A DNA stretch of 36,663 bases from Chrysophaeum taylorii. Taxonomy: Eukaryota; Sar; Pelagophyceae; Pelagomonadales; Pelagomonadaceae. Numbering within the stretch: the stretch's first letter is position 1; each line of letters starts with the position of its first letter. Below are positions 8,055-36,663 of the stretch, piece after piece. The notes beneath the pieces are model-generated. The model was not told the DNA's origin. It did no database searches and was given only the letters and a program-made list of their open reading frames with translations. The stretch covers positions 1 through 36,663 of the forward strand of contig JAQMWT010000160.1 of NCBI GenBank assembly GCA_029834535.1, read 5' to 3'. The position numbers and the translations under genes are program-made.

Positions 8055-8056
8055 TG

Positions 8057-9083
8057 CGGCTGTCGCCAAGCCCCGCATCCACCACCAGCAACCAGAGATT
8101 CTTCGCCGCACGATTGCCGCCAATGTAACGAATCTCCGCCCAGGTGATGATCGGTATCTGCAAGACTGCAGCGAATGCAAGCGCTGTCAATCGCATGTCA
8201 GCTTCCGTCACAAGAACACTTCCTGGTCACAGGATGAACTAGCCTATGCTCCTGGCCAACATCTCCATATGGATGTCTCATACCCTACAAGCATCAGCGA
8301 ATGCTATGGTGGGTTTCGTTACATCATGCATTTTGTATGTATTATCTCGGCACACAAATGGGTATACTTCCGGAGGAAACTAGACGCGCAGGACGTTCTG
8401 GCTGGCATCCTCTACGTGGTCAATGTGATTAAGGTCGAATTCGATGTTTGTGTGAAAATCATCTCGTCTGATGCCTTTTCCACTTTCCGCTCCGAAGCTT
8501 TCCACCCGCTCAAGGTGCAACTCGGTATCCAGTTTCAAATCATTGGTCGCCACCTACACTAGCGGAACTTCGCGGAAAACATCATTAAGGAAAACACACG
8601 AGGCACTGTAGTTCGCCTCCTCAACCTTCGCAGTGTCCGCATCGAAGGAAAGCCTATTGCCGCCGAGTACTATCACCCGTTTGCTCTGCTGCAAAAGATC
8701 CAAGCCGGCAATCAGCGCTCTCATGGACTGCCCTCGCGCACTAACATGAACTGCACCGTCCCCCGGCGCATCATGTCACCCATGGCACCGCTCCTGAAGC
8801 TCCTTCCCTTTGGCGAACCTGTCACCTTCGTCTATCCTCACAGTCACAAATTGGAACCTTCCAGCGTCTCCGCCTCTTACCTTCATAGCAACAATTATCG
8901 CCCGAACCTCCCCGGCACAGACCGATTTATCCGTGATGTTCACAGCTCTATCCTGCTTGTACATCAGGGGCGATATGGAAAATCGTCACCTCTAACGACT
9001 TCCACGTTGATGCAGACATGCCAGTCAACCGCAACAAGGAGATCGAACGGATCAAACTTGAAGGGTTGATTGATCAAACTTAA
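8057..9083 (+). pseudogene. LTR-retroelement integrase, broken copy
   Basis: This is an integrase, the enzyme that inserts retroelement cDNA into the genome. An HH pair (RIHHQQPE, about 8078) and DCSECKRC (8164-8187) form the HHCC zinc-binding region. The catalytic core follows: D in HMDVS (8272-8274), D in ISSDAF (8470-8472) and E in NFAEN (8575-8577). The D-to-E spacing of 35 codons is exactly that of the copia-like integrase at 30819-31121. A TAG at 8560-8562 lies between the second D and the E. The frame then continues through about 9083 (EIERIKLEGLIDQT). No RT follows. It probably belongs to the same family as the minus-strand methyltransferase element, but linkage is not shown. Confidence 0.8.
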
Positions 9084-10180: not shown

Positions 10181-10400
10181 GGAGAGATTTGACCCTCTCC
10201 GGGTACATGGTAGAGACTGCGTGCAGTCTTAGGCGTGTACAGACCATTCCGCTTGTCACATGCTACTACACAAGGTAGGGATTTAGGCCCTAACTCCTTA
10301 AGGACATTAGGTCCTATATGAGCGTTCACACAGACAACGAGGAATGAAGCCTCCATTACTTAAACAGAAAACCCCATACCTGACGGTACGCACCTTGAGG
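10181..10400. other. Terminal hairpin array, copy 1
   Basis: Consecutive short inverted repeats: GGAGAG/CTCTCC (10181-10200), AGACTGC-GT-GCAGTCT (10214-10229), TTAGGCCCTAA, AGGACATTAGGTCCT (10301-10315) and TACCTGACGGTA. The same series occurs at 22892-23110. It is likely a structured 3' end of the transcript or DNA. Confidence 0.7.
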
Positions 10401-16004: not shown

Positions 16005-16012
16005 GGGCGCGC
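16005..16012. repeat. 8-bp target-site duplication of the hAT element (copy 1)
   Basis: GGGCGCGC here equals GGGCGCGC at 20226-20233. Eight bases is the standard hAT duplication length. Confidence 0.92.
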
Positions 16013-16072
16013 TAAAGATGCTCACGGACACTTCACCCGCATCCGAGGCAAGACCGCATCCGCTGGTCATCC

Positions 16073-16225
16073 GCGTCCGCGTGTTATCCGCATCCGCTCC
16101 TGGCGGGGCGTGTCCGCATCCGCGACGTGTCCGCATCCGCGGCGTGTCCGCATCCGCGGCGTGTCCGCATCCGCGGCGTGTCCGCATCCGAGACGTGTCT
16201 GCATCCGCGTATTATCCGCATCCGT
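16073..16225. repeat. 17-bp minisatellite at the hAT 3' end
   Basis: Tandem copies of GTGTCCGCATCCGCGGC. The unit is the same as at the other end of the element and in the same direct orientation on the plus strand. Candidate transposase-binding repeats. Confidence 0.88.
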
Positions 16226-16784
16226 GACCGTGCCAATCTGGGGCTGTCCGCTTCTACTACGAAGCTGCGTCCCCAGCCCCGTATACACGCGTCCAAGGCA
16301 CACCTGCGCCTGCGGCTGCTCCGAGTCTGCACGGTGTCCGCACTTGTGGCGAAAAGAGGCAACTTCGAATTCATGCCGCCATTGCCATCAAACACGTTCA
16401 ATTACGTAACTGTGCCCTCGCCCGTTTGATCCGAAGTCTGTTTACGTGCATGGTGCGCGATCTTGAAGCCCGCTGGGGGGGCGGCGAGCCGGGGAGCCAG
16501 GAGAGGCGCGAGCGGTGTTTTGCTCACGGCTAAAGGCTGCGACATGGACAGGATCTGGCGGTGCGAACACGAAGGAGGTGGCGGCAAGGGCAAAGCGCAA
16601 GCTCAAGGCAGGGAGAGAGCTGCTGACGAGAAGATTGCCTAGAAGCCAGGGGCAGGGAGTTGGTGTTCGCGCTATGAGCATAGGCGCGAAGCCGCAGGAA
16701 GCGGAGACACGAAAGAGGGGTGGAAAGAAAAGGAAGGGCGTCATCAAGGGAAGAGCGAGAAAACGCCCAGAGGAGGTGCGAGGA

Positions 16785-19774
16785 CTATAGGTGATCAGGT
16801 GTTTTCGGCGCCGGACTCTTCATCATCGACCTCGGTGTCGTACTCGGGATTGTCGTGCTCACCAGTGGTGTTTGGCGTTTCTTTGAACAACGCCCAAAGG
16901 CGGTCGTAGTCGATGCCGCCGTCGAGTTCTTCCAGATGGGGAAGTTATGTTCGATGATTACAAAGGCCTTGAGCAGCCTGGGCCTGAGGCGAGAGCGAAG
17001 CGGCATCTTGGTCAGCTTCGTGAACCTGAAGACCCGCTCCTCGTGAGCTTCAGTGATCTGTGCGCAGCCCTTACTCTCAAACAGCAAGGTTGCCGTCGGG
17101 TATTCGTCGCGGATCATCGAGTTCGCATACATCTTTGTCATATCGAGACGCTGGCCGCGAACTCCATCTTCGACAACGAATTGCTGGTATGTATCATAAG
17201 TCATCGCCCGGAACTTAGCCAGCTCGATGTGAGCGTCGTGTTTCTGCCGCGTAGTCGACTGGCTCATCCGCTGATTCGTTATCATCGCCGAGGTCGAGAA
17301 GATCGTCGTCGGAGTCGGAGTTGGAGGCGGCAGTACGACGCTTCTTCTTATAGGGCGAAGGCTGCGTCGGTTCTGGCTGAAACGAAGCGAGTCTATCCGC
17401 CGCTTCCTCCCAAGCTGCCTCGAACGTGACAGTCGCGAGCTTGGCCTGTGCCTGCGGCAGAATGTTGTTTAGCTTTAGCGTTGGATTCAACGCCATCAAA
17501 ATCATCACCGCCTTCGCTGGCGCGCGGCGCAGGTGGCGCCGCTTCAGTTCTTCGACAAGCACCTGACGGAAAGTTTGAGTGGACTGGTCAACATATTCCC
17601 AGGGCATATCATCGAATTTGCGATTCGGGCCAATGCCGGTGTGTCGTCTTGGGACACACAGCTCCGGTTTCTCAAGCGACTTGATGCAACGATAAATGTA
17701 CACTCGCTCCATGTCGGCCACTGGAACGTCGCCTTCCGTCTGGAGAGTGAGTTTCATGGGTGGCTGCATGGCCGCCTCGAGCTGCGAGTTGACGCTCCAC
17801 TCGAAGTCAGTTAATGGCTGAGGAACCTTGCCGCGAGACGCGGAGGAAGAAGCGGGCTCGACGGCTCTAGAGGGGGCGTCGGTCTCTGTGGTCGCGTCTG
17901 TATCAGAACCTAGGCTTTCGTACTGGTCGCTCAACATGTCCTCGATCTCTGGCGCGACGTCAGCCTGGTTAATGACGTTCCTGGACACGACAGCCGGCCT
18001 CGACGACGTGCGGCGCGCTCTGTCGAGAACCACGGTTATTGGTATTTCAAGCACGTTGTTTCGAGTGATAGTATCGTTTTCGGCAGCCCACCGGTTAACA
18101 TCGCCCACAGCAGCTCCAAGCTCCTTGCCCTTGGGGACGCCGCGCCTGTTCTGTTCAGCCAGCAGTTCATTTGTGCGAGCCGACGATCGGTGAAAGAATG
18201 ACGCTATCTTTCTGTTCTTCTCGACTAGGGCTTTGACATCCGGGTTCTTCGACTGTTTCGTCCCGATGCCCAGTGCCCACAGAACTGCGCGTGCTGTGTT
18301 GTGCGGACGGCAGACCGAAAATCCATCGACTTCACGTAGGGCCATCTGCTTCGCTGCAACACCAAACGCTTCGCCGTCGAGAACTGCGTGTGCAACATTA
18401 TCAAGTCGTAATCCGGATTGTGCGAGTGTGTTCTTGTAGTCGTCGGCAACGTCGCCAGCAGTATCATTCTTAGCCGAGACCTCGAATCCAATCACTATCG
18501 GGGCGTTCGTCAACCTCGGCTGCTCGGAGCCCACATCCACCAATTTTCCTTTTATACTGTCCTCGGCAGAGAGTGCGCGAACGTCCAATTGGCTTTTCTC
18601 CTTGACGCCAATGATGACATTGGAGGTTGTACACTTGTATTTGCATTTGCCCTCGCCGTCTGTCCACCCATCCTCCGAGGTGCAGATGAAACCCGTCATC
18701 CGTTCCGCCCCGAACCTCTGAAACAAATCCAGCCGCCGGTCCCTGTCGTATTCCACAATTGCGAGAGCAATTCGATTACAGGTGGAGCGACAGGGCACGG
18801 CTGTCTCCGGCTCGATTTCGCGAATAAAATCTTTCATATGTTCTCCCTTCAGCAAGTTAAACGGCCGCAGCTCGCTGGCGCACGCTATCACGTACTTGAC
18901 AGCCTGGGAATGCATATTTAGGGACGCCACGCGCGAGACGAACCTGGGGTCAGCGTCCCTTGAGAGGCTATCTTTGACGGACCTCGCCGTTGACAATCTG
19001 CGAGGTGGAGAACGGCGACTTGCCTTTGATAAATTCGCCATAGATGGAGGGATAGTGTCGTTTAATAAAAGCAGACATCCGTCTGGTGTTCGATGGCTCC
19101 TTGATTGCATCCTTTCTCTTGCAAGGCTGCCGAACCAGCGGCAGCTTGTTGCCGCCCGGTAGGATGCATCTCATTTGAAACGCGACGCTCTTCTCTGAAA
19201 CGCCGCCGTCGGTGGACGTGCAGGCCAGGGGGCCGTTCGCTACTTCGAAGAACGCCTTGACGATTGACTTGTAGCGAGACTGGCCAGCGGTCTCATCGAC
19301 GTCGGCATCAGAGACACCCCCTTCGTCCTCGGCAGTTTCATCGGTGGCGTGCGATTCTCGATAAGCGTTGACGAGGCTCTGAGCCTTCACACGCTCATCG
19401 TTCTCCTTCTTCGTCTTCTCGTACCGCGCCTTCAGACTCGCAAAAGAATGAAATGGCCTCGAACTCCGGCATTCAACCCAGAACTCGCGTTCGCTGTCGT
19501 CGTCGACTTCATACTCCGGACACGAGATCTTCACCGCCTCTCTCTGCACCCCGCTCGGAAGTTTGTGCTTTGGTTGGTGCTCAACGAGAACAGCCAGCCA
19601 TTCTCTTCGACGTTCAGCAGCAGTCCCACCCTTCCACCATGTGCCAGGCATGGAAAATTGGTACCCGACGTCCTTCGAAAAGTCCTCGAAAACGAGCTTA
19701 CTCTGCGCGGCACCTTCCGACCCCCCGCGCTCCCCTCCCGATGCTGACCGCTTCTTGCTCGCTGTGTCGCTCAT
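16785..19774 (-). pseudogene. hAT transposase (frameshifted)
   Basis: A DDE transposase of the hAT superfamily in three overlapping frames (19774-18968, 19110-17215, 17285-16785), about 1000 residues, starting at ATG 19774-19772. A Cys/His-rich segment with RCILPGGNK, PCKRK and FIKRHYPSI (about 19020-19180) may be a BED-type zinc finger. CTSEDGWTD (about 18660-18685) fits the first catalytic Asp region. CRPHNTARAVLWAL (about 18270-18310) fits the C..H.LNLAV motif. A-L-N-P-T-x-K lies near 17480. MIRDEYPTATLLF and EERVFRFTKLTK with LRPRLLKAF (about 16940-17120) form the hAT C-terminal dimerisation region. Only two single-base shifts (near 18985 and 17255) separate this from an intact gene, so it is recently inactivated or carries sequence errors. 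Confidence 0.9.
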
Positions 19775-19995
19775 GAGATTGTCGATCTCCCAAAAACGAG
19801 ACCTAGCTTTTTAGGTCAACATGACGAGGTTAAAGGATTGCGGTCCTTACTACTGTATACCCCCTCTTAATGTCCGTCGACGGCAGCGTAAACCCTAGCT
19901 TTCATTACTGTGGCTGGTTAAGGATTGCGGATGTTGGACCGTTTCAGGCAGCGGAGGAGAGACGGAGAGCGACGCTCCCACACCACAGGCGTCCG

Positions 19996-20217
19996 CATCT
20001 GCTGGCTATCCGCATCCGCTTGGTGTCCGCATCCGCAGGGTGTCCGCATCCGCAGGGTGTCCGCGTCCGCAGGGTGTCCGCATCCGCAGGGTGTCCGCAT
20101 CCGCAGGGTGTCCGCATCCGCAGGTTACACCCGTATCCGCAGGATGTCCGCATCCGCGGGGTGTCCGCATCCGCGGGGTGTCCGCGTCCGCAGGGTGTCC
20201 GCATCCGCATCCGTGAG
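19996..20217. repeat. 17-bp minisatellite at the hAT 5' end
   Basis: About a dozen copies of GTGTCCGCATCCGCAGG, slightly varied, end directly at the terminal inverted repeat. Both arrays run in the same direction on the plus strand, so they are direct rather than mirror-image relative to the element ends. Confidence 0.88.
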
Positions 20218-20225
20218 CTACTTTA

Positions 20226-20233
20226 GGGCGCGC
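20226..20233. repeat. 8-bp target-site duplication of the hAT element (copy 2)
   Basis: GGGCGCGC, identical to 16005-16012. It lies in the methyltransferase coding sequence. Confidence 0.92.
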
Positions 20234-21234
20234 ATAATAGGGTCAATTTCGCAGGTGACCACGACAGTAATCCGTTTGTCGAAGCGTTTGCGAAAAGAGT
20301 CAAAGCCTTCTTGGTGGAGTCCACCTGCAGTAATGGCTGTGTTTAGCGGAGGGGATTGTGCTTGCGCAGCTTGCGCAGAGAGGTCCGCTGAGCCAGTTAA
20401 TGCATATTGGACGACAGTACGCGGGAGGCTGATGAGTTCTGACAGAAATATTGAATGCTGCTGTAACTTAGCGAAATCTAACGTGTGGGATTGCGAGCGT
20501 GTCTTTGCGACATTCTGCGTGATGTGTGCGAGCTCATCCTTGAGTGACATTTGCGTTCCGGCGTGAAAACAAAGCACAGCGCGGAATGTTTGCTTTGGAT
20601 GGGATGGCAGGGACAATAGACCATTAGTTTGGCGATTGGCGAGAACTACTGCGGTTTTGCCTAGAAGCGTCTTATAATCGTGGGGATCTGCGGTTGACGT
20701 GTTCATAAGCTCGTAAAAGTATGGTTCGTGTGGCAGTGGCGGGTCGGTCGCTTGGACGTTCAGAGCTTTGAGCTGAGATGTCGCTATAACCTGTAGACCT
20801 TTTCTGAATTGCGGGACGACCAGAAAGACGAGATATAAAACGCAACCTGTGGAGTCTTTGATATCCTTTGAGGAGAGACCTGTGGCTTGCAAATACAACG
20901 GTTTGACACCGATGAAATGGCTGGTTAAGGTGCCTCTCCCCATGCGAATGGTGTGTTCGGGAATCCATCGTATGGATTCGGGAACAAAGTGTTGGATTGT
21001 GCGAGTGAAGCAAAATGATGCGCCACCGTCAATTAAAGAAGTTTCAGTGCCGGGACCATCGCATCCGTGCAGCGAGTTAGTCTTCGTGGGTGTCTTTCCT
21101 GGAGTGTAAGTGGCACAAAGAAAATCTGCGACTCTGGGTGAAATGGTTGATGATGTCAGAAAATTCTTCATCGTGAGGCTTGGTGCCTGATTGAGCAAGA
21201 TGTGGTTGGCGGCACAGGCGTCGTCGGCAACCAT
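20226..21234 (-). pseudogene. Retroelement protease plus C5-methyltransferase N-terminus, interrupted by hAT
   Basis: ATG at 21234-21232 overlaps the gag stop (TGATG). An aspartic protease follows: LIDGGASFCF (about 21005-21035) has the D-[STG]-G-A active-site loop of retropepsins, followed by IRMGRGTLTSHFIGVKPLYL. About 150 codons later the methyltransferase begins, with AITAGGLHQEGFDSF (motif I region, glycines not canonical) and ITVVVTCEIDPIMRA (motif II-like E-x-D). The frame runs to 20226, where the hAT target duplication starts. The rest of the domain is at 14508-16004. Protease and methyltransferase are thus in one polyprotein frame, without an intervening integrase. The 5' part is open and looks young. 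Confidence 0.85.
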
Positions 21235-22815
21235 CAGCAAAAAAGCTGACTCTGTTGTAGAGCACGCATGTAGTCGCTGTGACGTTGTGCGTAGTCTTCG
21301 GCGGAGTCATCTTCATCATTGATTTCGGGGATGGTGTCGTCGTAGAGGCCTAGCTGTCCGTGGTCGTCATAGAAACCGAGGTGGCCTTGGTCATCTTTTT
21401 CGTCGGCTTCGCCCTCATCAGGTGGATCTTCCTGAGGATCGGACGATAGCACCTGAAGGAACTCGGCGGCATCGCAATCGGCTTCGGAGAGAAGTATCTC
21501 ATCGGAGATAGTGGTGATGAGATTGATCAGCTTGTTCATGCGCTCGGAGTTGGACGTGTGTTGGCGACCGGTTTGACTAAGATTCCGCATGGTTTGGAGC
21601 TTGCGACGAACTTCACGAAGGGGGACCTTGAATCGTTGGTCAGGAGTAGATGGCTTTGGTGGATGCGGTTGGGTGGGGAAGGTGACCTTGCGAAGGTGCG
21701 GGTGCTCGCGTTTGTCTGGGGTGGCAGGAGAAGCACAGGGGTTTTGTTTGTTCTTTGTTGGGGTGACAGGGGGGGCCTTGGGCTTAGGGCTGTCATTGAT
21801 GTCATAGTACGACGGGGAGCGAGGATTTGGAGGCTTTTTGGGTGGGGGCTTCTTGGGGTGGCGTGTGAGCTGCTTCTTTCGATAGGCGTGAAGATGTTGG
21901 ATGAGATCAGTGTCTTCGTCTGGGTCGAGGTGGGCTTCCATGAGAAACATGGCAACTGGGTCGTGGGTGTTGGGGAATGCTTCATCAGGATCTGGTGGAA
22001 TTTCATCTTCAGAGGGAGAGGTGTCATCATCGTCTTCGGTGAGGTGGAGGCCATGACGGCGGGAGTTAAAACGTGGATTGTCTTTTTCGTTGGTCGGCAG
22101 ATGACCAAACTCAGTGACGAATCGCAACGGCTCGAAGTTCAGGGTGGGATGAGGCTCAAGGTGAGCCCAAAAGATGCGTTCGAAAGTGGAGATAACCGTG
22201 ATGCGGGCGATCAACTTGGGCAAATGGTTTATTGCTTCCTTGTCTTCGTCGAGTAACAGCGAGTCGTCTGGAGTAAGCAGACAGTTGGCAAGACACACGA
22301 AGCCCTTGATATGCTTTGGGGCGCGGGAGTCAAGCAAGCTTGGGCGGTACTTGAATCGAAGTATCTGGTGGATTTCCTTGAGAATCTTGTCATCGGGAAG
22401 TTGGAGAGAGGCATCGTTTGTGATTTGGCGAAGTTGTTGCTGAGCGGGTCGCATATAATCGACATAATGCGCTGGCTCGTGGATCTCCGGGTTGAACAGC
22501 GTGTCCAGGAAGGCATTATAAACATAATGCACGTGGTGGATGTGGTTCTGGCCCGTGTGCTTGTCAAGTCCTTGGCGGACTTGGAGCACGAATTCGAGTC
22601 CTATCGGATGAGAGGATCCGAGTGCATCGATTTCGTCGTATGCTTGGTGCGTGACGGAGTCGCTACCGGCATGCAGGAAACGGCGAAAGAGGGGGTGCAC
22701 GGTCTCGCGGAGGTACACGATGAAGTCGGCTTCTTTTCCTTGGAGGTGAGGTTGTGTGATCGGATACAACTTTCCTTTTGTCGTATAGGTCGTGTCCTTG
22801 TCCTGGTCTTTAAGT
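21234..22815 (-). CDS. Gag-like protein of the minus-strand methyltransferase retroelement
   Basis: The frame is open from a TAA near 22815 to TGA 21236-21234, about 520 codons. There is no ATG near the 5' end, so the start is uncertain, and a spliced or non-AUG start is possible. The N-terminal 230 residues are helical with no known motif (QPHLQGKEADFIVYLRETVH, IHHVHYVYNAFLDTLF). Then come an acidic stretch (TEDDDDTSPSEDEIPPDPDE), a Lys/Pro-rich basic stretch (RHPKKPPPKKPPNPRSPS) and a second acidic tail (EDPPDEGEADEKDDQ). Position upstream of the protease and this composition suggest gag, the structural protein that packages element RNA. I see no CCHC knuckle. The stop overlaps the next gene's ATG as TGATG. 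Confidence 0.65.
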
Positions 22816-24525: not shown

Positions 24526-24640
24526 GAGCGCCTCTTTGAGCAGCTTGTGCAGAGAAATCTGCTGCCTCTCACCCTTATCCGTCCGTTGAGAACGTGATCT
24601 CTTCCTTACCCTTCTTCTTCCTTTCTACACGATCAAATAG

Positions 24641-25381
24641 TCCTCTGATTTGTGCCTACGCTCATCATCATGGTCTAGCGCGTCCCGAGGTATGTAGCAC
24701 TATACACTTTACCTTTCTCGTGTAGTTCTAGATGCCGCCTGTCGTGTTCTGAGGATATAGGGAACATACCCTTTCATTCCCCGAATTAAATACTTCCAGA
24801 CGTTCATGATGAGACGGGATGGTTTCCCAGGTGACTTACCACTGCTTGCTAATGCTCTGCAGGTTATGGGCCCAGGCGGGTCCCTGAGAAACCATGTGTT
24901 AAAACGTGCACGTAACCTATGGGTATTGGGTCGTTACCGCGCCGACTCAGCCTCGCCACGAAAACACACTTGTAAATACAACGCCATTACCATTGGGCTG
25001 TATATAATACTTTTTGCACACGTGATCGTGTAACCTTGTGTGCACCTGTTCATAGCATCGTATTGTCATGTCAATGTTGATGTGTGTGTAATTGGCTAAC
25101 CTGTACTCTTGCACACATGTTATGGAATATTTTGGGTACGTCCACTCGTACATTCCATGGCAATGCACTTAACAAGCTCCTTGAGAGCACCAAAACTAAC
25201 CAGCTGCCTGAGTGACTACGCTTAGCGACACTACTCTGGACTCACAGCTTGCACAGTCGTCAAATAGACATCTTTCCATCGAAAACGATGAGTGTACATA
25301 GACACCGATAGACAGACCCCCTTAGAATGTCTAGACAGTGTCAACTGCGTGACTGAACCCACAGGTTCCCCGTCAACTGCT
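24641..25381. promoter_or_regulatory. Divergent intergenic region with a TATA-like box, possible LTR
   Basis: No gene is visible in this 740-bp stretch between the minus-strand coiled-coil ORF and the plus-strand gag. TGTATATAATAC near 24998-25009 looks like a TATA box about 380 bp upstream of the gag ATG, as expected inside a 5' LTR. I could not identify the LTR borders, a primer-binding site or a matching 3' LTR in the window, so LTR status is inferred from position only. Confidence 0.35.
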
Positions 25382-26351
25382 ATGGCAGAACACGCAGCAC
25401 GAGCCGCACCCAAGGCGATCACAGGTGCGGATATATTGAAGCTCGAAGCTCCTGTAGTTGAGTTTCTTAACGATGGAAATCGATTTCAGCTTCAGACTCG
25501 CAAGGTATCCTTGCAAATCAAGCACATTAAGCAATTGTTACGGTCCAGTCATGCCGATGCTTTCCTCGAGTACGACTCGTACGAAGCATATACTCGGTCA
25601 TGCAAGGACTACGAGATCCTCCGGAATCAAATTCTCGATCGCGTTTTCCTGGAATGGAAGACCGATAGGGCTGCTGATCTCCGTTTAGCTGTTGATGAAT
25701 TGCCCCGAGTATCAGGAATGGCATTTCACCAACGAAGCTTTCCCCCACTTACCTGATGCAGAAGTAGCTCAGCTAGCTACTGTCTGTTACGACTATGAAG
25801 TCAAGGCATTACGTCCTGAAATCAATGCTCGTTTCTTAGAAGAGGAACGAATCTTAAATCGCGCGCACCCGAAGGCACTAGCTTTCGACACCCGTGTTCG
25901 TGCCCCTGTTACCATGTTTTCGTTAACTGCTGCTGACTGGCACACTTATCAGAACACGTATGCTACATTCTTGCATACTTACTTCAATCTTGAAAGTGTT
26001 GGAAAACCGGCACTTGCGGCCTGGCCCGCCATCAATGAGGTATACAACAAAAGTTATTTACCCAACAAGGCTCGAGCTATTATGCTCATCGCCTTTAGTC
26101 ACTACGAGTCTGTTACGACTACTGATGTGTCCTATTTGAAACAGCAATTTAACTCTGTTGTTTATAATCCTAACTGGTATGTCCATGTATTTATCGAAGC
26201 TGTCCTAGCATTTAGGCAAATCTCTTACCAACTTAACCAGGAAGAGACTGACCTTCAATTCGACTTTGGCACTCTTTGTAGAAAAATGAAGAGATACATC
26301 GGCATTATGCCGATAATACCAGCAACAACCGTTACGATCGTGGTTGGGTAG
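25382..26351 (+). pseudogene. Gag-like protein of the copia-like element
   Basis: It starts at ATG 25382 (MAEHAARAAPKAITGADIL) and runs in one frame to about 25700, then shifts by one base and continues to TAG 26349-26351 (EYQEWHFTNEAFPHL to TIVVG). The joined product would be about 320 residues, largely helical (VSLQIKHIKQLLRSSHADAF, FSLTAADWHTYQNTYATFLH). Its role as the capsid protein is inferred from position before the protease. No zinc knuckle is seen. The next frame overlaps it for about 70 bases in the -1 frame (open from about 26282). Confidence 0.6.
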
Positions 26352-26362
26352 ATTGGTGTTAT

Positions 26363-28150
26363 ATGTACGAAACCCGATCTTCATCTCGGCCTGTGCCAGA
26401 AGCTGAACGATTGTGTCACCCTACCAACCCTAGCTACATTTTAGAATACGCATTAGACCTTTACAATGTAGTATCAAATGGGTCGAACAAAAGACGCTTA
26501 GAACGCCCTGTTTCTTGGCAACCCTATGTCGAAGGTTTATCATCTCAACCAAAGCCAAAGTTACTACTTACAAACACTTTGGACTCATCAGACAAAAGTC
26601 TGACTCAAACTGCTAACACACTCGCCTTCATCACTTCGTCCCAACCTGGTACATCTTCCACGTTTAATGCTAGACGCTTGCGTAACTCTAATGATGCTCG
26701 CCAGCCTTTCTCTCGCAGCGATTTATCGTATTATCGTCCTGGTGATTCTTACGTCACCAAGAAAACTGCCGGACAGTCCCATGACCGTCCAATTTACCCC
26801 CGCACTTTTGACAGGTCCTCTCGGTCTAACATGAAATTATTAGATCGAACAAACCACACCTTAAACACCCTGCGAGAACAGTGTAGTGAACTTACGAAGC
26901 ATGTGACAGATAATGATACCACGGCTCAGCTACAACAGAATATCAACAAGTTATTTGAGACTCTATTACAATCAGCTGACATTCTGTCAACGACATCTAC
27001 TGAGGACAACAGTAGTTTACTTCGTCTAAACGAACAGCTCATGTTTGCAGAAGACATCATTTATGATGTAGACGTTCATCTATCCTCGACCGAAAAGTCG
27101 TTAAACTACGTGGAGCCACAACACCATACTGTTGTTACTGCTCCCACCCCAAAGGCAACTCCTCCTACTACAAACACACAGGGTAATCCTTCCAATACTG
27201 TGCCTAACCTCTTTACCGCTTCCGCCATCTCGGCTTTACCACCAGCATTATTGTCCTCGCTATCTTCACAGGTCCAATCTGCCCTCAACACACCATCACA
27301 AGCCGAAACCAAAAGGGATGCCGATCATACTTCGCTATCGTCATTTGATGAAAAGCACGGCATGGCTGATGAGGCTGACGAACCATCACCACCTGTTCAA
27401 CCGATCATTATTCCAACGAATCTGTTATTGCTGAAGAACTTCTTCACAGCCAGCCTCTCCACTACTTGCCCACATTCGGAAAACGCCTTCCTCACCAACT
27501 ACATGAAGGTAAACAGTGTCCCTCCACATTGCTCTTTTCTATATTTTGACTCTTGTGCTACCATCTCATTGATGTCCACTTACGATTTTGCAATACCCAA
27601 TCATATAATTCCATTGGACTCCAAATACGCGCCGATTGTTATTCAGACGGCTACAGGACAACAACGGGCATCACACATGATGTTAACACGTAACATTGTT
27701 GTTCCCCTACCAGATCATCCACAAGTTGGCTATGTTAAGATCGACTTCGCTTTATGTCTTCAGCCAGTGCATGACCGACATCTCGCTATCCTGAGCATGC
27801 TCGAGTGGAACCAGACGAACCTGACCACTGTGTTCAATGATCGAGCTGAGCCAAAGCTCAGCGCTGTCACGAGCCGCATAGACAAAGATGTACGTATACC
27901 CATACACTATGTAGCAGCTAATTTACCTGCTCTCCCTTGTCTCACTTACAACATCGCGCGCGACAAGCGGCTCGAACTTCGTTCTCTCGCATTTCCCCTC
28001 AAGCGATACCATGAAAACAGGGATCTACTGGCATACTACAACTACCTACTCCAAAGAGTTTTACCAGATCGCCCGTGGATTCGCCCTTTGGTTCTCAATC
28101 TTCGGAAACAGAACAAATTTGTTCAGCAAAATACGCAGCCATTAACTTGA
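26363..28150 (+). CDS. Gag/protease region of the copia-like polyprotein
   Basis: 595 codons from ATG 26363 to an in-frame TGA at 28148-28150; the frame is also open upstream to about 26282. Residues 1-330 are low-complexity, Ser/Thr/Asn/Pro-rich, with a possible helical segment (TLNTLREQCSELTKHVTDND). The protease is in the C-terminal third: CSFLYFDSCATISLM (about 27530-27575) resembles the D-S-G-A loop of copia proteases, but with Cys in place of Gly. IVIQTATGQQRASHMML fits the second protease strand, and HLAILSMLEWNQTNL fits the I-L-G-x-D/L end. If DSCA is real, the protease is catalytically doubtful. Beyond the TGA, the same frame continues straight into the methyltransferase. Confidence 0.75.
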   Translation: MYETRSSSRPVPEAERLCHPTNPSYILEYALDLYNVVSNGSNKRRLERPVSWQPYVEGLSSQPKPKLLLTNTLDSSDKSLTQTANTLAFITSSQPGTSSTFNARRLRNSNDARQPFSRSDLSYYRPGDSYVTKKTAGQSHDRPIYPRTFDRSSRSNMKLLDRTNHTLNTLREQCSELTKHVTDNDTTAQLQQNINKLFETLLQSADILSTTSTEDNSSLLRLNEQLMFAEDIIYDVDVHLSSTEKSLNYVEPQHHTVVTAPTPKATPPTTNTQGNPSNTVPNLFTASAISALPPALLSSLSSQVQSALNTPSQAETKRDADHTSLSSFDEKHGMADEADEPSPPVQPIIIPTNLLLLKNFFTASLSTTCPHSENAFLTNYMKVNSVPPHCSFLYFDSCATISLMSTYDFAIPNHIIPLDSKYAPIVIQTATGQQRASHMMLTRNIVVPLPDHPQVGYVKIDFALCLQPVHDRHLAILSMLEWNQTNLTTVFNDRAEPKLSAVTSRIDKDVRIPIHYVAANLPALPCLTYNIARDKRLELRSLAFPLKRYHENRDLLAYYNYLLQRVLPDRPWIRPLVLNLRKQNKFVQQNTQPLT

Positions 28151-29876
28151 CTACTCTCACGCCCAGTGTTTCTCTCACAAGAGTCCAATCTCCGCAAACC
28201 CTCTGTTATGTTACTTTGTTCTGTTTTGTCAACCCCGGCGTTCCTGTCTCAAGCCACTAATGACTTAGGCTTAAATATCAATGTAAAAGTTGTTGTTGAG
28301 TCTGATGATACGCTTGTTCGTATGTTACGCCACCGTTTTCCTACTGTACTATTATTTGAATCTCTCCCCGCCTTTATTAACCATCTTCACCTAATCTCAC
28401 CAGAGGAAAGGCGCACATTCTATTGTGATATAATTGAGATCACTCCTCCCTGCACAAACAGGAGTTTACTAAAACAGCAAAAGACGGAAGACTTACACAG
28501 CCTGCTGGACGACTCTCTTTTCGACAGCATGTTGTCTGTCATCAAGCTACTCCAGCCCTTGGTACTACTGGCGGAGATGACGCCTCCATATAAGTACTGT
28601 CATCAAGACCACATCACTGTGGCCAACCTTATCCATACTACACTTGATTCCTGTGTCGATGTTGTTGATAGGTTCCCGACCTACCTCTGTGGCGACTACC
28701 AATCTAGAGAAAGATGGATATGCGTCGCACGCAGATATTCTACTGGACCAATTAAGCTATTATCGTGGCCCATCCTCCATCCACGCCCCTTCCTAAAGAT
28801 CGTGGATGATCTACAAGCAATCCCCAAGCGCCTTTGGCTACCTAACCACATATCCAAAGACTGGATCCGGGTGTTCCCCGATCCTCCATATATCCCCGTT
28901 CCTAAAACGTTTGCACCTTACTCTCGCACAGGTTCTGTTCAGCTTACTATGGCTGACCTTGAATCCCTCAATATGTTACTGCTTCGCCTTCACTCACAAC
29001 AGGCTCACGAACAACGTACTCACTCTGTTCAATCCGAGTGTACTTATCATCAGTTGTGCTTTAAACGCTCCTCTATGGAGCCATTACCCAATGCAACACA
29101 TCCTATACACGTCAAGGTTTTTACAATCCTCTATAACTTGTTTGCCAGCTTACACACTAACTTACCCACTCCTGTGTCCTATTACATAACCGTTTTCGAA
29201 ACTAACCAACCGTCACACAGGTTATTACTTACAACCTCATCAACATCACACAACTCCTACTTCTTAACTGGTGGCCACCATTCCGACGGCAACCTCACCA
29301 TAGAGAACGCCACCACCAAACAGCATGCTTCCATTGACGCGTTTGGAAGCGCGTATACGCTCACTGCTTCCGACATCCCCCGCGACCGGGACAGGTCCAT
29401 ATATTTGGAGCCGTTTGTGGGTGTGGATAGTTCAAGCCCTTCCCCAAGTTGGCTCCGCTGCCACCCATGGCACCACCATACAAAAGCTCTTGTCCAGATG
29501 CTCTCTTGTGATGCCTGGCTGCCTTACGTACAAGGCCACCGACAACTCTTTCGACTACAAGGATTATCATTTTGCTCTGGAAGATCACCACTTATCTCAT
29601 AGTCGCTATATAGGGCACCTTCGTGGAAGTGACCGCAAACTCGGCTGTAAAATCCACTCCATGCTTGCTCCATTGCCCACCGTCCGAGGGTATGCCAATA
29701 TTATTTTACTTGACCCTCGCACCGGGAAGTTACGCTACCCCACTCGACCGGAGTTGATTCGTGCTAACAACCACACCAAGCAACCGGAATCTTTCCTCTT
29801 GTCTCTACGCCATGACCTTTGCTGTGACATGCTCAGCAATGCTCTGCCTGCCGGTACGTACAGCACTCTGTACTAA
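28151..29876 (+). pseudogene. C5-cytosine methyltransferase-like domain inside the copia-like polyprotein
   Basis: It is in the same frame as the protease after one TGA. The motif I region is LLCSVLSTPAFLSQATNDLG, followed by VKVVVESDDTLVRMLRHRFP (motif II-like E-x-D, then the N-x-P region). Motif IV is CDIIEITPPCTNRS; the catalytic Cys is retained at 28451-28453, but the usual Gln after it is Thr. Motif VI reads VLLAEMTPP where ENV is usual. Motif VIII is GDYQSRERWICVARR (about 28685-28730). After a frameshift near 29530, motif IX-like GKLRYPTRPELIRANNH (about 29725-29775) and motif X-like MLSNALPAGTYSTL (about 29830-29870) close the domain. A TAA ends this frame at 29874-29876. The domain order matches bacterial and eukaryotic DNA cytosine methyltransferases; the motif changes suggest reduced activity or strong divergence. 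Confidence 0.85.
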
Positions 29877-32288
29877 AACCTTTCGCTCCTCGTTGCCGAT
29901 ATTAAATCCCTTATCTTGGACCCTACCTTCCAACATACTGCTGCAGTGACTAAGAAATCCTATGTATCCAATTTCATGACCATTAATCGAGCTTCCACTA
30001 CGTGCAGCACAGATACCTTGTCTTTGGCACAAGCTTTTATGATGTCTATTTCCAGCAACTGCTTTTCCGAAATGTCGTTGAACTATATATCTTCGTCCTA
30101 CGAAGATACTCTCGTTACTCGTGATGATGAGAATGCACCTCCAAGTGACCCTGCTGCGCACCAGGATGACGATACACCGCCTTCCCCTGCCTTAGACACC
30201 GAACTCAAGTTCGATGTTCGGCGCAAACGGCACATTCCCGCTCACCCCATTCCTCGTAAGTCCCTCGCACATGGAACCACCGAATATCTCAATGCCAAAG
30301 AACGTGCCAATCGCTTTCACCGGGTGCACCACTGCCCCGACAACGTCGCTGCCAAGGCCCCCAACGTACTTGCTCGCCCTGGATTCTCTGCTTCTGACAT
30401 ACCATATCGCGACTTATGCACCGACTGCATCGCACAGCGTAGGTTGGCACCTATTCGCCTCCCGGGCGGGCCGGTTGGCAGCCGGAACGTTCGCAGTGGG
30501 ACAGGGTATGGCCGGGGGGCGAATACGGAAGGTTATCGACGAGTTGGTTGTCAGTCACATCGCGGTCTCCTCGTCGCATGGCGACAAGCTTGATGGTCAC
30601 TCTCCGCCGACCGACCTTTCGGCGCTCCTCGTCTACAGGCCCGTGATTCCGGGCTGGCTCCTGTCGGTCCGGCCTGGCTCCCATGCTCGGGAGAGGTCTG
30701 AAGTTAGTTAGTTAGTTAAGTTAGCATCGCACACAACAAGCGCCACCCGCACAAGCATTTCAATGCGACCAAGCCTTCTTTTGAGCAAACTTACAAAGCC
30801 GGCGAAGTCTGGGCGTGCGACGGCGGCTATGTGACCATCCCATCCGAATGGGGAGGCTTCACACATATCATAGTCTTCAAGGAACTCATTTCGAAATTTC
30901 TCTTGGTGTACTTTACACGCACCACCAACGCCACGGAGTTCACTCGAGCTCTGGATTTTGTGTATGACTTCTGTCGTACACAACTCAACGTGCACATGCG
31001 CACCCTCTACTCCGATGCATTCAAGCCCTACTTTAGCCAGCACATTACCTCCCCGCACCGCGTCGATAAGGGCATTCAACTCATTGGCTTCCCGCCGCAC
31101 ATGCACCACTTTAACTTTGAAGTTGAGTCTGCCATCGGTTTCATCGCCTCCGCCTCCTCAACTCGCCTTCGTTCTCTCCGTAATGCTCACTATCGTGGCG
31201 CCAAGATCGTGAAGCCCGCTATCATGTTTCCATGGGCGGTGATACACACTGTTCAAAGCTATAACCTTCTCCCGAACGCCACGCTCGAGCGCATTCATCA
31301 TGCTATTCTGAGTCCGCAACAGCTACTCTACAACCAACTCAACACTCCCCAACACGATATGCTCAAGATTTTTGGCGCTGAACGTTACCTCCTATTGGAG
31401 CCCCATGAACACCACAAGTGGGAACCGTGCCGCCGCAAATATCTGTATCTCTGTTGCGCCAACGCGCAAAACCCGCTCGTCTCCCCACGCGTCGACCATC
31501 TCGCTGACGTCGTCCTCAACCCTGAAAACGGACAAATTCGTGTTTCGTCCAAGCTGCAATTCCTCTACATGCTCCAGTATCCTGATCCTGAACTTGCTCC
31601 TCCGCCTCACGCTCCTCCCGCGCCTTTCTCGCTCACACCCCACGCCGCTATCCAAGACCATGTCACTCAGAGGGGGACACGGACTCCTCATCCTCAGAGG
31701 GGGCACTCTCCACCTCCTTCAGCTCCTTCTTCGTCCCCTGCTCCTGCCTCTTCTCGCTCTTCTAACACTCTCGCCGACGATTCTGGCTCTATGTCACCGC
31801 CGCCCTTGCTTCCTTCTTACAATGACCTTTTTGCACAAGATGACCTCATTCTTGTTCCAGGTTCCAAACAGCCTAACACCCGCAAGGCCACTTCTATGAA
31901 AACTATCCGAGCCCGGTTACAAGCGTCTACTATTGGTGCTTACAAAGCCGCTGGTGGCAAGCTCGCCGATTTCCGCTGGGATCTTCGCCACCACTTTCTT
32001 ACGTTCAAGTCACCCGCCCTCTCCGCCCTTCATCTCCGTGGTGGTATCCTCTGGTCTGCTATCTGCTCAGAGGGGGAACGTGCGTTGTTAGCTCGTCTTC
32101 TTCTCCCGTTGCGCACTGAATTACTTGCCCGCTACCCGCACGTCGATGGTTACTTCGCCCACGCCAAGTGCGCATCCAGCATCCCAGCTGCATCCTTTTT
32201 AACTGCTGATGGTTCACCTACGTGCCCCATTCCTCAGCCCTTTTATCTGCGTTCACTGAACACGCTGCTGCCTTTGGCACTTCTTCCT
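29877..32288 (+). pseudogene. Copia-like integrase, split by a SINE
   Basis: It continues in frame from the TAA at 29874. An acidic linker (DDENAPPSDPAAHQDDDTPP) leads to the HHCC zinc region: FHRVHHCP (about 30316-30340) and LCTDC (30417-30431). The SINE-like element 30437-30723 sits after CTDCIA; removing it and one 10-bp duplication restores the frame. The catalytic residues are D in WACDGGY (30819-30821), D in TLYSDAFK (31014-31016) and E in NFEVES (31119-31121). The spacing D-x34-E is near the retroviral D,D-35-E. The C-terminal part is a Pro/Ser-rich linker (31590-31800) and a conserved-looking domain with KLADFRWDLRHHFLTFKS. A second SINE follows at 32296. Integrase inserts the element's DNA copy into chromosomes. 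Confidence 0.88.
30437..30723 (+). mobile_element. SINE-like element in the integrase gene
   Basis: It is flanked by a perfect 10-bp target duplication GCATCGCACA (30427-30436 and 30724-30733). It ends in (TTAG)n and lacks about 70 bp of the 5' part seen at 32296-32648. Insertion plus duplication is 297 bp, a multiple of three. Confidence 0.92.
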
Positions 32289-32295
32289 TACAATA

Positions 32296-32648
32296 ACTAA
32301 CTAACTAACTTCAGACCTCTCCCGAGCATGGGAGCCAGGCCGGACCGACAGGAGCCAGTCCGGAATCACGGGCCTGTAGACGAGGAGCGCCGAAAGGTCG
32401 GTCGGCGGAGAGTGACCATCAAGCTTGTCGCCATGCGACGAGGAGACCGCGATGTGACTGACAACCAACTGTCGATAACCCGTATTCGCCCCCCGGCCAT
32501 ACCCCGTCCCACTGCGAACGTTCCGGCTGCCAACCGCCCGCCCGGGAGGCGAATAGGTGCTAACCTACGCCGGGAGGGCGGATGCCCTCGCAAGGCTCAG
32601 GATTCATGAGGCACCGTCCTCCATCGCAACCGCAGTCGGCGATCAGGG
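32296..32648 (-). mobile_element. SINE-like element, longest copy, antisense between integrase and RT
   Basis: It is flanked by TACAATA (32289-32295 and 32649-32655). Read on the minus strand it starts CCCTGATCGCCGACTGCGG and ends (GTTA)n, about 353 bp. Removing it joins ...LLPYN to MHLRTWRF in frame. Insertion plus duplication is 360 bp. No clear tRNA or 5S rRNA-like head was found. Confidence 0.92.
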
Positions 32649-32654: not shown

Positions 32655-33660
32655 ATGCACTTACGTACCTGGCGCTTTATTGATCACAACTCATCCGAGT
32701 TTGGCGCTACTTCTGCATCTCTGGCTGACTTGGAGGAATACCTTCTGGTCTCTACCGAGTTTATCACCCAGGTCTTACACACCGACCCTACTATCCATAT
32801 TCAACTGGAATCTGCTTCTCCTACTCCTACTGACGCTGTTTCCGCTTATCCCGAAGTTGCGCACACTGCCTCGACCACAACGTCGTTAAACTATAACTCA
32901 CCAGCCACTGTTGGTCCTGACGAATATAAGGTCCAAGAAGCGGACGTTTCCATTGACGAATATAAACTCAAGTGCCTCCACGGTATGTCGCCTGAAAACA
33001 GGCACGCCTACCTCAAGGCCATCGCCAAGGAACTCCACGACATTATCCGCTTTGGCTGCTTCAAACTTTCCTTACCCGACGGTGTCTCTCGTCCTATTGA
33101 CAGCAAGATGGTGCTGAAGATTAAAACAGACTCTGCAGGCAAATACGTCAAGCAAGGCTCGCTTGTGCTACGTGGCTTCCTAGCATCTCTTGGCGCCGAT
33201 TTCTTTGGCACCTTCAGCCCCATGGCCACCATGACCGCAATCCGGGTACTACTAGCTATTGCAGCATACAAGCAATTGCCTGTCTACCATGCAGACGTCC
33301 CGAACGCCTTCGTTCAGTCTGACATTGATGCCAACGTCTATGTTCAGTTACCAGACGGCATCAAGCTTATCGACCCCGATGACGCTAAGTACAAGGGCCG
33401 ACGTCTACCGAAACTGCTGAAGTCACTTTATGGACTTCGGCAATCACCATCTTTGGAACAAAGAGACAGACGGCTTCTTCCGCAGCCTTGGCTACAAACG
33501 CCTGCATTCGGACTCTTGCCTATATGCTCGAGTATCCGCACATGCTAAGTTCGTCGTATGCAGTCTGTCTGTAGACGATATTGTTATTGTGTCCATTGAT
33601 GACCCTCTTCGTACCGATTACAGGATGCCTCCACAAACGGTATGCTGTAGAGCAGTTTGA
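32655..33660 (+). pseudogene. Copia-type reverse transcriptase
   Basis: The frame continues from the integrase across the SINE. ELHDIIRFGCFKL, MVLKIKTDSAGKYVKQGSLV and LRGFLASLGADFFGTFSP correspond to the E..al..n..W.lv, K.D..G.v..kARLV and akGf.Q..G.Dy..tF motifs of copia RTs. YHADVPNAFVQSDID carries the first catalytic Asp (33294-33296). SLYGLRQSP lies at about 33425-33455, and after a one-base shift there LHSDSCLYAR and LSVDDIVIV follow. The VDD catalytic pair is at 33571-33579, with Ser instead of Tyr/Phe before it. It copies element RNA into DNA. It is inactive here because of the frameshift and the upstream stops. Confidence 0.9.
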
Positions 33661-34666
33661 ACCTGTCCATACCCTCCTAGGCATGCGTGTGTGTCGCACA
33701 TCTGACGTTCCATTTTCTGGATGTGCAAGCCAAGCTGGATGAACTCTTCGCTGATCACCCAGTCTTGCAGCAACTGACCCCGTTAAATATCCTATGTCAT
33801 CGTCCTTCAAGTATAAAGATGGCACTCCCAGCACTGAAACAGAGTTGTACATCAATTCGCACTTTGCCACCCTTGGCAAGGTGGTGTTCATGCAAGTTGC
33901 CTGCAGACCTGACTTCTCGCGCCTTGGGCAGATGTTCGCGTGGTATGCATGCACCTACGTATGTTCGTCCAAATGCTAGAGCATTTGCTTCGCTACCAAG
34001 AAGCCGGAAAACCGCTCACTTCGCCTCTGGTTCCATCCTAAAGGTAATGCCATTGAAGCTCACCTTCGCACTGTCTCCGCTAATCGAATTGATCTATCCA
34101 CTGTGGTCGACTACCAACCGCAGGATGTATCTACTGGACAGTTTGACCCTTAGTTGCCATGGTTGACACGCTGACAATGCCCCTTCCTTAGCACAGGAAG
34201 ATAGAATCTACCACCGGGTTTGTCTTCTATCTTTCAACTGCCTTATTGGTTGGAAAAGCAAACTTCAACCGATTGTCACCTGCTCAACTCACGAAGCTGA
34301 GTTGATTGCCCTCAGTATTTGTGCTGATGAAGCTGTTTGGCTACGCCTGCTGTTGGAACTCTCTTTGTCGTCAACCCCACCTTCTACGTCAACAATGCTA
34401 ATGGTGAGAACACCGCTGACCCTGTTGACTTCGATGACAATGACAACCCAATTGCTGAAGATATGCTTCATCAGAAGCCTACCTCTTTGTCTGACAATGC
34501 TGCCGCTGTTCACACCTCTAATAACCCAGATGGGTCCTCTCGATCCAAGGCACTGTCGACCAGATGGTTTAAAATCCGTGAGTACATCTCGCTACAGAAA
34601 ATACGAGTCCATCATGTTCCCGGCAAGCTGAACGTGGCGGATGGTTTTAAAGCCACTTGCTGCTGA
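33661..34666 (+). pseudogene. Copia RT C-terminus and RNase H, heavily frameshifted
   Basis: Recognisable pieces lie in alternating frames. HFATLGKVVFMQVACRPDF (about 33855-33915) matches the GsLmYl..tTRPDi region. ESTTGFVFYLSTAL (about 34205-34250), then IGWKSKLQPIVTCSTHEAEL and ICADEAVWLRLLLE (about 34235-34360), match the STtGy.f..g..isW.Skkq..va.SstEAEy...W lines of copia RNase H. LSDNAAAVHTSNNPDGSSRS and FKIREYISLQKIRVHHVPGK, then NVADGF (about 34480-34655), match the DN.sA...n...H.R.KHi...h..ire and AD..TK end. RNase H removes the RNA strand from the hybrid. Confidence 0.88.
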
Positions 34667-36014
34667 GTTCTCCACTTTTCGTTCTCTACTCGGTATGCAT
34701 CATGCTTCTGACGACAAGCTTCCTTACAGGATTGAAGATGCCTAACTCTAGTGACCGCAACGTCGTTAAACTAGCCCTGGCCTTTCCTTCTTTTACAATT
34801 TTTTTGTACGCGTCGGTGAGTGTCGCTATGTCTTTTTTGGCACTCCCGTGGCCGTGGCCGCGGCATCTCTCCAGTCGTTCGAAGGACAAGTCCACGCTCG
34901 CTTTCCACGACCGACCTTCTCCCAAGTTGTCTCAAAAGCGACAACCCATAACCACTGTCACCCTGTTACCTCCCAGGCTACTGTCTCACCGATACCAGCT
35001 GAACATATTTACTACAATCTCTAACACTCCAGGATGGCCTCAACATGGATTTTGCCTGATTGAACGAGGATTCTTCTCTCTGAGAGCTTCCTGTACCCGG
35101 CTACTCCCTTTCTCTTCTTTATGAGAGCGGCCCTCTACGGCACTCAACTCGATCTATGAATCTGCTGACTTTTTGCTGTTTGTGGAACTAACAACACTCA
35201 TATCCATGCGCCTACCCATTACTACATTGTGGGAGGCTGATCCTGCTATTGCTTCTATTGGCTGCTATAGAGGCCCCAAACGTGAACATCTCATTCTGTC
35301 ATCCTACTGTACGCAATGCCTCAACGATTTGGGGCAACCTACATTTCTTGCCTCCACCACATATAATTCGATGTCACAAGCACCCAGTGAACCCCACTGA
35401 AGTGCTGAGTCACCTCAACACAGATGACCACAAGAAGAATGGTCACATTCCCATCTCCATATCACCATTAACATTTGTTGCGCTTGTTACAACACCGATC
35501 AGGTGCCCATACAACCTGCTCGTATGTGTACGTAATGCTACTTCCTTCCAACCTCCTGTGATGGGTTCTCAGCTGGTCATATACGCGCAACCATCATACG
35601 CACGTATATCATTAAAGATCTGATATCTTCTCTGAACTAGCAGTCTAACGCAATATCCGTCGTCACTTGCTCATTTAGTCTTATCAGTAACCGATGCAGC
35701 CACAGATTCCACCACTCAACCCATTCGCACTGGATCTTCGGCTTATTACTCAGATGCACCTGGAGCATCTCAACTTTTTGTAATGCTCGTGCGAACACAG
35801 GCTCAAAACTCAGGCTATGTTCAAGCCCACAAATACCACCATGTGATTAATACTGTTGTCCAATCGTGGGCACAACATCTTGACGACGACGTATCATCTC
35901 CTCGGATGATAAAGCCGCCATCACTCCTGGATGGAATGTTCGCCCCACCTATACTCCGGCAGAACATCAAGACTTTCTGCATTTTAAACAGAAATACCCC
36001 TACTTGCACAACAT

Positions 36015-36520
36015 GTGTTGACCGAAACGTCATTAAACTACTCACTTCCCACATCCGAATCTACTCTGGAAATGTCTTCGCCATCGACACACCCTGCTCC
36101 TTCTGCCTCGCCTGATGATGTCGATGCCTTGCGTCAACAAGTCGCGCAACTCCAGGAAACTCGCCCACATATTCGCAAGGTCAACACCCTAGCGCTGAGA
36201 ATCTATCTCTGCGCACAGATCTGAGGCTGCCATTGCTTCACTACCTCCCTGGAGAACCGGCTCTTTCCTATAGCCAATGCACACGTGTTGCTCGTAACCC
36301 TGCTCAAGATCACAGAGCGACTGTCTCGCTTAACTCTAACAGCTCATGACCAATATGCCGCCAACCCTTCCTCCCCGGACGATCACCTCCATCGTCTGCG
36401 TGATAATTTGCTCGTGTATTCAAAGCATTCTTCGCATGTGAATCGGAAGACCTTCATCTTCTCGATCCGTTCGCTGAGTCCACCACCGCTGAAACCAACT
36501 GGAGAATCCTAAAACTTGAC
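36015..36520 (+). pseudogene. Possible 3' ORF of the copia-like element, coiled-coil type
   Basis: One frame encodes SPDDVDALRQQVAQLQETR (36108-36165), and then another encodes LENRLFPIANAHVLLVTLL and LTLTAHDQYAANPSSPDDHL. The order (Pro/Ser-rich, short coiled coil, hydrophobic helix, Q-aromatic-x-x-N) resembles the 366-residue ORF at 23425-24525 (SLRQLKEEIQSL, AVFVHIISRSLISSIGQFPPN). Similarity is weak and judged by eye. No function is known. Confidence 0.4.
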
Positions 36521-36663
36521 TCACTAGTGCCATCCCTACTGAATGGTTTACGGCACTCACGTTTCTGTATGGTACCACACCACTCTGCTATTGGTGTTCA
36601 CCACTCATAGCAGAAGCTGACGCAAGAAGATACCTGATGATCCGATCAAATACGAACTAGGCG

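Follow-up and report, generated by a model that had tools for sequence, protein, structure and literature searches.

The window analysed here is a 36,663-nt stretch of Chrysophaeum taylorii contig JAQMWT010000160.1, to which all positions below refer. It contains a broken copy of a Ty1/copia long terminal repeat (LTR) retrotransposon family, hereafter F1, whose pol region begins with a predicted C5-cytosine-methyltransferase (MTase) domain that follows a protease-like motif and precedes the integrase. The parts of the window copy are:

24548 to contig end, plus strand: F1 copia element, with the 3′ LTR outside the contig
24548..24861, plus strand: 5′ LTR (TGCAGAG...CTCTGCA), delimited by the left match end in sister loci and by identity to 3′ LTRs
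24862..24876, plus strand: candidate primer-binding site GGTTATGGGCCCAGG, adjoining the 5′ LTR
25292..28147, plus strand: gag-protease region, found by tblastn and split into three open stretches that overlap (25292-25750, 25704-26288 and 26288-28147)
27545..27574, plus strand: protease-like motif FDSCATISLM (DSCA), read in translation
28148..28150, plus strand: conserved in-frame UGA (UGA CUA) at the boundary of the gag-protease and MTase-pol frames
28151..29873, plus strand: MTase domain with a large insert, assigned by profile searches, predicted folds and conservation
28208..28234, plus strand: MTase motif I (MLLCSVLST, the G being lost in the window copy)
within 28292-28309, plus strand: ESDD motif of the MTase
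28436..28453, plus strand: MTase motif IV with the catalytic Cys (EITPPC)
28565..28579, plus strand: MTase motif VI (LLAEM)
28697..28717, plus strand: MTase motif VIII (YQSRERW)
29733..29759, plus strand: MTase motif IX-like (RYPTRPELI)
29835..29855, plus strand: MTase motif X-like (SNALPAG)
30318..30434, plus strand: HHCC zinc-binding motif of the integrase, read directly
30437..30723, plus strand: insertion of a dispersed ~280-bp repeat interrupting the integrase region, absent here in 12 of 12 long sister loci
30726..32243, plus strand: integrase core (D, D, E at 30810-31139) and C-terminal part
32296..32648, minus strand: second insertion with the dispersed repeat, before the reverse transcriptase (RT), lacking at this site in 10 of the 12 long sister loci
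32676..33618, plus strand: copia RT (RVT_2), with a frame change near 33451-33467
33617..36638, plus strand: remainder of the element, nearly to the contig end

The window copy is degraded, as its gag-protease region is split, its MTase is read in frame 2 to about 29422 and in frame 0 from about 29418 and ends at a stop at 29874, its RT part has two frame changes and two insertions interrupt it. Of the two long sister loci left over for the 32296-32648 insertion, L041 ends before the site and L033 has a copy of the repeat at or near it. A first-pass annotation had described a copia-like element at 27530..31130 with a C5-MTase domain between protease and integrase. A translation scan found each motif it named on the plus strand and in place; the element itself exceeds that span, starting at 24548 and leaving the contig. 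The MTase motif order holds too, with the amendment that the frame changes near 29418-29422, between motifs I-VIII and motifs IX-X, and that motif I has V for G.

The window's own genome (70.8 Mb, 697 contigs) was searched for sister copies, and the F1 protein search gave at least 91 match rows (88 scored of 1453 candidates), some of which are pieces of one copy; 42 loci were examined, of which 38 are distinct copies. The gag-protease region of the window copy is 90-96% identical to open reading frame (ORF) 1 of sister copy L036 (tblastn), and its integrase core is 93% identical to that of sister copy L031. In a sister copy, one open frame of 1691 aa spans the MTase through the RT.

F1 is assigned to Ty1/copia on the basis of the RVT_2 match, the integrase preceding the RT, and the LTRs and target duplication of a sister copy. 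The Pfam RVT_2 profile matches the window piece 32610-33545 with an E value of 1.3e-20 (74.5 bits, cut-off 31.6) and the L031 frame with 7.7e-42, and the integrase (30318-32243) lies upstream of the RT (32676-33618) in the window pol. Matches of the window piece to rve (E 0.0053, 17.4 bits with a cut-off of 32.6) and SH3_retrovirus (E 0.0065) are both below the Pfam cut-offs. Ten of the 12 long sister loci begin to match the window at 24545-24550; the exceptions are L038, which is truncated by the stretch examined, and L034, whose match starts at 27664. Compared with the 3′ LTRs of the copies on contigs C33, C42 and C420, the window 5′ LTR has an identity of 93.7-97.5%. In the C33 copy the second LTR lies about 12.16 kb downstream and is 97.8% identical to the first over 320 columns; the LTR ends are TG..CA, and the 5-bp target duplication GTTAC flanks the copy on either side. 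The LTRs of the C42 copy are 92.7% identical and its flanks read GATAA and GATAG (4 of 5 positions matching), while those of the C420 copy are 92.4% identical, its second LTR abuts other element sequence, and no matching target duplication was found at its flanks. GGTTATGGGCCCAGG directly follows the 5′ LTR in all four copies read (window, C33, C42, C420). As with other copia elements, this sequence is presumably similar to the complement of the anticodon arm of initiator tRNA-Met; that tRNA, sought with a strict pattern, gave 0 matches.

The putative aspartic protease annotated in the first pass is called from the FDSCATISLM motif; no protease was found among the Pfam matches. The usual form of the protease motif is D[ST]GA, and the DSCA reading also occurs in two sister ORF1s.

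That the 28151..29873 stretch codes for a C5-MTase is indicated by profile searches, predicted folds and conservation. The Pfam DNA_methylase profile (PF00145) scores above its cut-off of 22 bits for two of four relatives from outside the genome, P0002 (23.0 bits) and P0004 (24.3 bits). A Foldseek search with two predicted models gave C5-MTase family entries in all 50 rows among the matches listed per model; the best row for the second model is DNMT2 4h0n (2.1e-9) and the best VIA row for the first is S. pombe Dnmt2, the DNMT2 rows being tied with DNA MTases. The profile search and fold matches rule out that the stretch is another domain, and both the structure check and the search for relatives proposed in the first pass came out in favour of the annotated arrangement, with a C5-MTase fold, sister LTRs with a target duplication, RVT_2 and an open MTase-through-RT frame in a sister copy.

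Several observations weigh against the assignment. In the PF00145 check proposed earlier the window piece alone stays under the cut-off (E 0.066, 13.1 bits), the L031 frame has no entry at E ≤ 0.1, and P0001 (20.2 bits) and P0003 (17.7 bits) are below the cut-off as well. The confidence of the models is modest (pLDDT 47.1 and 62.8). Motif I, CSGLST in the F1 family and CSVLST in the window copy, is non-canonical compared with FxGxG. No MTase turned up when the PDB was searched by sequence with the window piece or F1. Other searches led no further: one with residues 1-640 of L031 ORF2 for relatives of similar total length found none at E ≤ 0.001 (7984 candidates scored; 5.8 billion proteins), and viral contigs gave no confirmed relative. 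A small hidden Markov model (HMM) built from three bacterial MTases scored the window core at 7.5 bits and the best of 200 shuffles at 1.5, but it is a weak control, since the longer stretch of L031 reached 0.2 bits and L043, a host-like MTase of this genome, 1.1 bits. Since the window piece is below the Pfam cut-off, the case against chance rests on the relatives, the profile search, the fold, conservation and selection. The motifs might be a chance reading in a decayed element with no MTase at all, as the low score of the window piece and the unlisted L031 frame would allow, but the five lines of evidence just named all agree and the probability of such an accident is next to nil.

Conservation among the sister copies is nearly complete at the catalytic positions. 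All 38 copies retain Cys101 and Pro100, Glu142 of motif VI and Arg188 of motif VIII, and 37 retain Arg186, also of motif VIII; motif I Gly25 is kept in 36, the window copy being one of the two exceptions, and the C of motif I in 35. The Arg and Glu of motif IX and the Asn of motif X are present in 37 of 37 readable copies. Pooling pairs of copies gave ratios of nonsynonymous to synonymous substitution (dN/dS) of 0.137 in motifs I-VIII (703 pairs) and 0.148 in motifs IX-X (649 pairs); by comparison, the MTase insert (residues 231-520, 703 pairs) reaches 0.278 and the linker 0.362 (624 pairs). A second set comprised the 12 long loci and the window, with 13 copies usable for the MTase, integrase and protease region, 12 for gag and the linker and 10 for the RT; it gave 0.127 for the MTase, 0.111 for motifs IX-X, 0.095 for the protease region, 0.120 for the integrase, 0.146 for gag, 0.194 for the RT and 0.300 for the integrase-RT linker. 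The F1 MTase is thus shown to be under purifying selection about as strong as that on the integrase. Against this it must be said that the values are biased downward because the copies chosen were the best protein matches; the contrast between the catalytic parts and the linkers is less exposed to that bias.

The gag-protease and MTase-pol frames are separated by a UGA at a junction readable in 41 of the 42 loci (all except L032), corresponding to 37 distinct places. It is present in 36 of the 37 distinct copies, the sole exception being L029, which has another triplet with small gaps adjoining. A decay of the window copy alone is thereby ruled out as the origin of the UGA at 28148. The other stops in the MTase stretch are each private to a single copy, apart from one site common to two, so that the UGA is a feature of the F1 family. 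The triplet is followed by CUA in 28 of 37 junctions, UGA CUA being a leaky context, and by AUG in L020, L036, L038 and L042, and we infer that it is passed by read-through or re-initiation. A point against this is that three junctions folded no better than shuffles when a strong hairpin was looked for 3′ of the UGA, with a method that does not consider pseudoknots. A UGA in a retrotransposon is also known from Tca2 of Candida albicans, with the order gag-UGA-pol, where, according to the available part of the source, the bypass is unexplained (PMC2194720). In F1 the UGA stands between the protease-like motif and the MTase; for Tca2 no MTase is mentioned in that part (PMC2194720).

A PF00145 profile search of the same genome at E ≤ 0.01 gave at least 121 rows (123 scored of 474 candidates), and ten MTase loci were read, eight from this listing and two further places (L043-L052). 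Six of them (L045-L050) belong to a second MTase-bearing copia family, F2, with the same domain order as F1: a protease-like motif DGGAS is followed by an MTase with PCQ, VEN and SKxRY. At another F2 place, L056, the integrase is matched by rve at E 0.0036 (below cut-off) and the RT by RVT_2 at 5.8e-39. F1 and F2 are 26-27% identical in the integrase and 35-39% in the RT, and an alignment of the two MTase profiles covers 202 columns (E 1.4e-6). The F2 MTases L046 and L048 score 38.6 and 36.7 bits with PF00145; a PDB sequence search with F2 found a cytosine MTase at E 0.84 only. The F2 search of the genome gave at least 108 rows (100 scored of 630 candidates), and dN/dS of the F2 MTase is 0.173 (seven F2 rows, one from the window).

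The non-canonical motif I of F1 and the SKxRY of F2, which stands in place of the expected QxRxR in 6 of 6 loci, would suit a catalytically dead MTase fold that serves only to bind nucleic acid, perhaps during packaging or integration. We consider this very improbable, given that none of the 38 F1 copies departs from the catalytic Cys, the Glu of motif VI or Arg188 of motif VIII and that P0001 and P0002 retain the same residues.

A Ty3/gypsy family with a C5-MTase is represented by loci L051 and L052 (contigs C235 and C686), which score 23.5 and 23.8 bits with PF00145. In L052 a single frame contains the MTase followed by RVT_1 and RNase H (DNA_methylase 3.5e-5, RVT_1 1.5e-12). The search of the genome with this family gave at least 110 rows (110 scored of 1112 candidates), with match identities in two groups, a higher one of about 82-98% and a lower one of about 75-77%; the family has two open frames of more than 3000 aa and an MTase dN/dS of 0.153 (one pair). 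Together the three MTase-bearing LTR families account for at least 309 match rows (91, 108 and 110), with many long open frames. The two remaining loci are host-like: L043, which we take to be DNMT2, and L044 (contig C621), where a frame of 2086 aa codes for a C5-MTase (65.4 bits), possibly DNMT5, together with a RING-like stretch that is below cut-off (E 0.23). The sister LTRs and target duplication, the conserved UGA, F2 and the gypsy MTase family all go beyond the first-pass annotation.

The MTase tree comprised bacterial, two host-like and element rows, with Dnmt1, 3, 5 and 6 outside its reference rows. In the 15-row tree F1, F2, P0001, P0002 and P0004 form one group (95/99) apart from the gypsy, bacterial and host-like rows, and in a 12-row tree that omits the host-like rows and P0004 the copia group has a support of 94/96. 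The tree program flags long branches in both trees. Our reading is that the MTase may have been captured once in a copia ancestor and separately in gypsy.

As for function, we favour, with fair though not strong confidence, the following account of the F1 family, of which the window holds a degraded copy. The conserved UGA would be bypassed at a low rate, so that MTase, integrase and RT would be produced at low levels and packaged into the particle, and the MTase, at the N-terminal end of pol, would methylate the newly made F1 cDNA before or at integration. The benefit would most likely be that the cDNA or new insertion resembles the methylated DNA of the host and escapes nuclease, editing or sensing, or else enters a chromatin state harmless to the host. 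Methylation of its own cDNA appears the most likely role of the enzyme in view of its position in pol and of the activity on CG sites published for a DIRS DNMT (PMC5890265, available part).

CpG hypermutation was looked for in the F1 copies and not found: 18 of 37 third-position CpG sites are polymorphic compared with 101 of 186 CpH sites (p 0.59). The lack of a C/T excess at CpG counts against heavy, lasting CpG methylation with deamination; methylation of cDNA, of other contexts or of RNA is left uncontradicted. The CpG observed/expected ratio is 0.79-1.02 in four F1 stretches and 1.07 in each of two other window stretches, a slight and uncontrolled difference, and 1.26 and 1.46 in two host-like loci, likewise an uncontrolled comparison.

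The same result bears on the possibility that the MTase acts after integration on insertion-site chromatin or on the element's own regulatory sequence, lowering its expression or copy number and sparing the host. Selection on the catalytic residues suits any DNA target, and self-restraint is among the ideas raised in the available text of PMC5890265. However, the F1 copies show no CpG decay, the dozens of copies (at least 91 match rows) mean that any restraint is weak, and the position inside pol would link the enzyme to the particle and the cDNA; we regard this role as unlikely.

Another substrate would be RNA, either the genomic RNA or the tRNA primer, by analogy with the action of DNMT2 on tRNA. 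The top structure rows, DNMT2 (4h0n) and S. pombe Dnmt2, point this way, and an RNA target is suggested for SymbioLINE in the part of PMC5890265 available, yet DNA MTases score equally in the same structure lists and the large variable insert (residues 231-520) is found where the DNA target-recognition domain sits, so an RNA-modifying enzyme seems improbable.

MTase-bearing retrotransposons have precedents in dinoflagellates and a charophyte, as the first pass had it, only with other carriers: according to the available text of PMC5890265, DNMT-bearing LINE and DIRS elements form three Symbiodinium families, a Gypsy carrier occurs in Klebsormidium, and Copia elements of Symbiodinium are without any DNMT domain. 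SymbioDIRS-Dnmt3 and KnitGypsy-Dnmt3, as described there, are like F1 in having a C5-MTase inside Pol, many copies and purifying selection. They differ in that their carriers are DIRS and LTR Gypsy while that of F1 is Ty1/copia, and in that the F1 MTase opens pol, between the UGA and the integrase, and is not shown to be a Dnmt3 (PMC5890265). SymbioLINE-Dnmt is likewise a C5-MTase spread by a retrotransposon and outside the named DNMT classes, but its carrier is a LINE, with the MTase in an ORF that precedes the RT frame, unlike the LTR element F1 with its integrase (PMC5890265). The gypsy family L051/L052 has a Gypsy carrier as in KnitGypsy (PMC5890265). The same text mentions DIRS elements with a Dam-like MTase, which resemble F1 as cDNA-making elements that carry an MTase, whereas that enzyme acts on adenine and is structurally unrelated to the one in F1 (PMC5890265).

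One sentence from 2025 places some DNMT3s in LTR Copia and DIRS elements, crediting PMC5890265 (PMC12344493); the available part of it gives no anatomy to compare with that of F1. The Copia mention may be a slip, since the credited paper, as far as available, reports Gypsy and denies a Copia DNMT in Symbiodinium. The available text of PMC9998398 reports no element-borne DNMT. No description of copia elements with the F1 anatomy was found in the searches made of the PMC literature, which has most subscription papers and all bioRxiv preprints outside it.

Because cytosine methylation silences transposons in many hosts, elements with their own MTase invert the usual picture, and some genome parasites may write the same mark that cells use for silencing them. 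With no fewer than three LTR families that bear an MTase, two of copia and one of gypsy type, this 71-Mb genome makes it possible to test whether an MTase aids the survival or integration of cDNA and whether unrelated superfamilies converge in one host. It is conceivable, and in our judgement distinctly unlikely, that the selected MTases of the two deeply split copia families, from one capture, and of gypsy, from another, are close to a precondition for successful retrotransposition, the host discriminating against unmethylated incoming DNA; if true, this would amount to a restriction-modification-like self/non-self system in a eukaryote.

The window also contains F2 sequences upstream of the F1 element:

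14535..21288, minus strand: F2 copy split by an insertion at about 16019-20227 (tblastn, main pieces 79-88%, one short piece 63%)
2266..9056, plus strand: second F2 copy, broken, with an MTase part at 2266-3687 and an integrase part at 6900-9056 (tblastn 42-94%)
9261..10182, plus strand: F2 MTase fragment (tblastn 68-80%)

Within the insertion in the first F2 copy, two long frames overlap (17215-19170 and 18968-19810, both on the minus strand); they have no Pfam match at E ≤ 0.01 and possibly belong to a DNA transposon. Another long frame is present in two copies of opposite orientation, at 4794-6729 (plus strand) and 11396-13348 (minus strand), the scanned pieces of which are without a Pfam match at E ≤ 0.01. 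The dispersed ~280-bp repeat inserted twice in F1 is found in both orientations, also at 4634-4851, 9450-9731 and 13347-13577, and with the GTTA/TTAG runs at its end it looks like a short non-autonomous retroposon.

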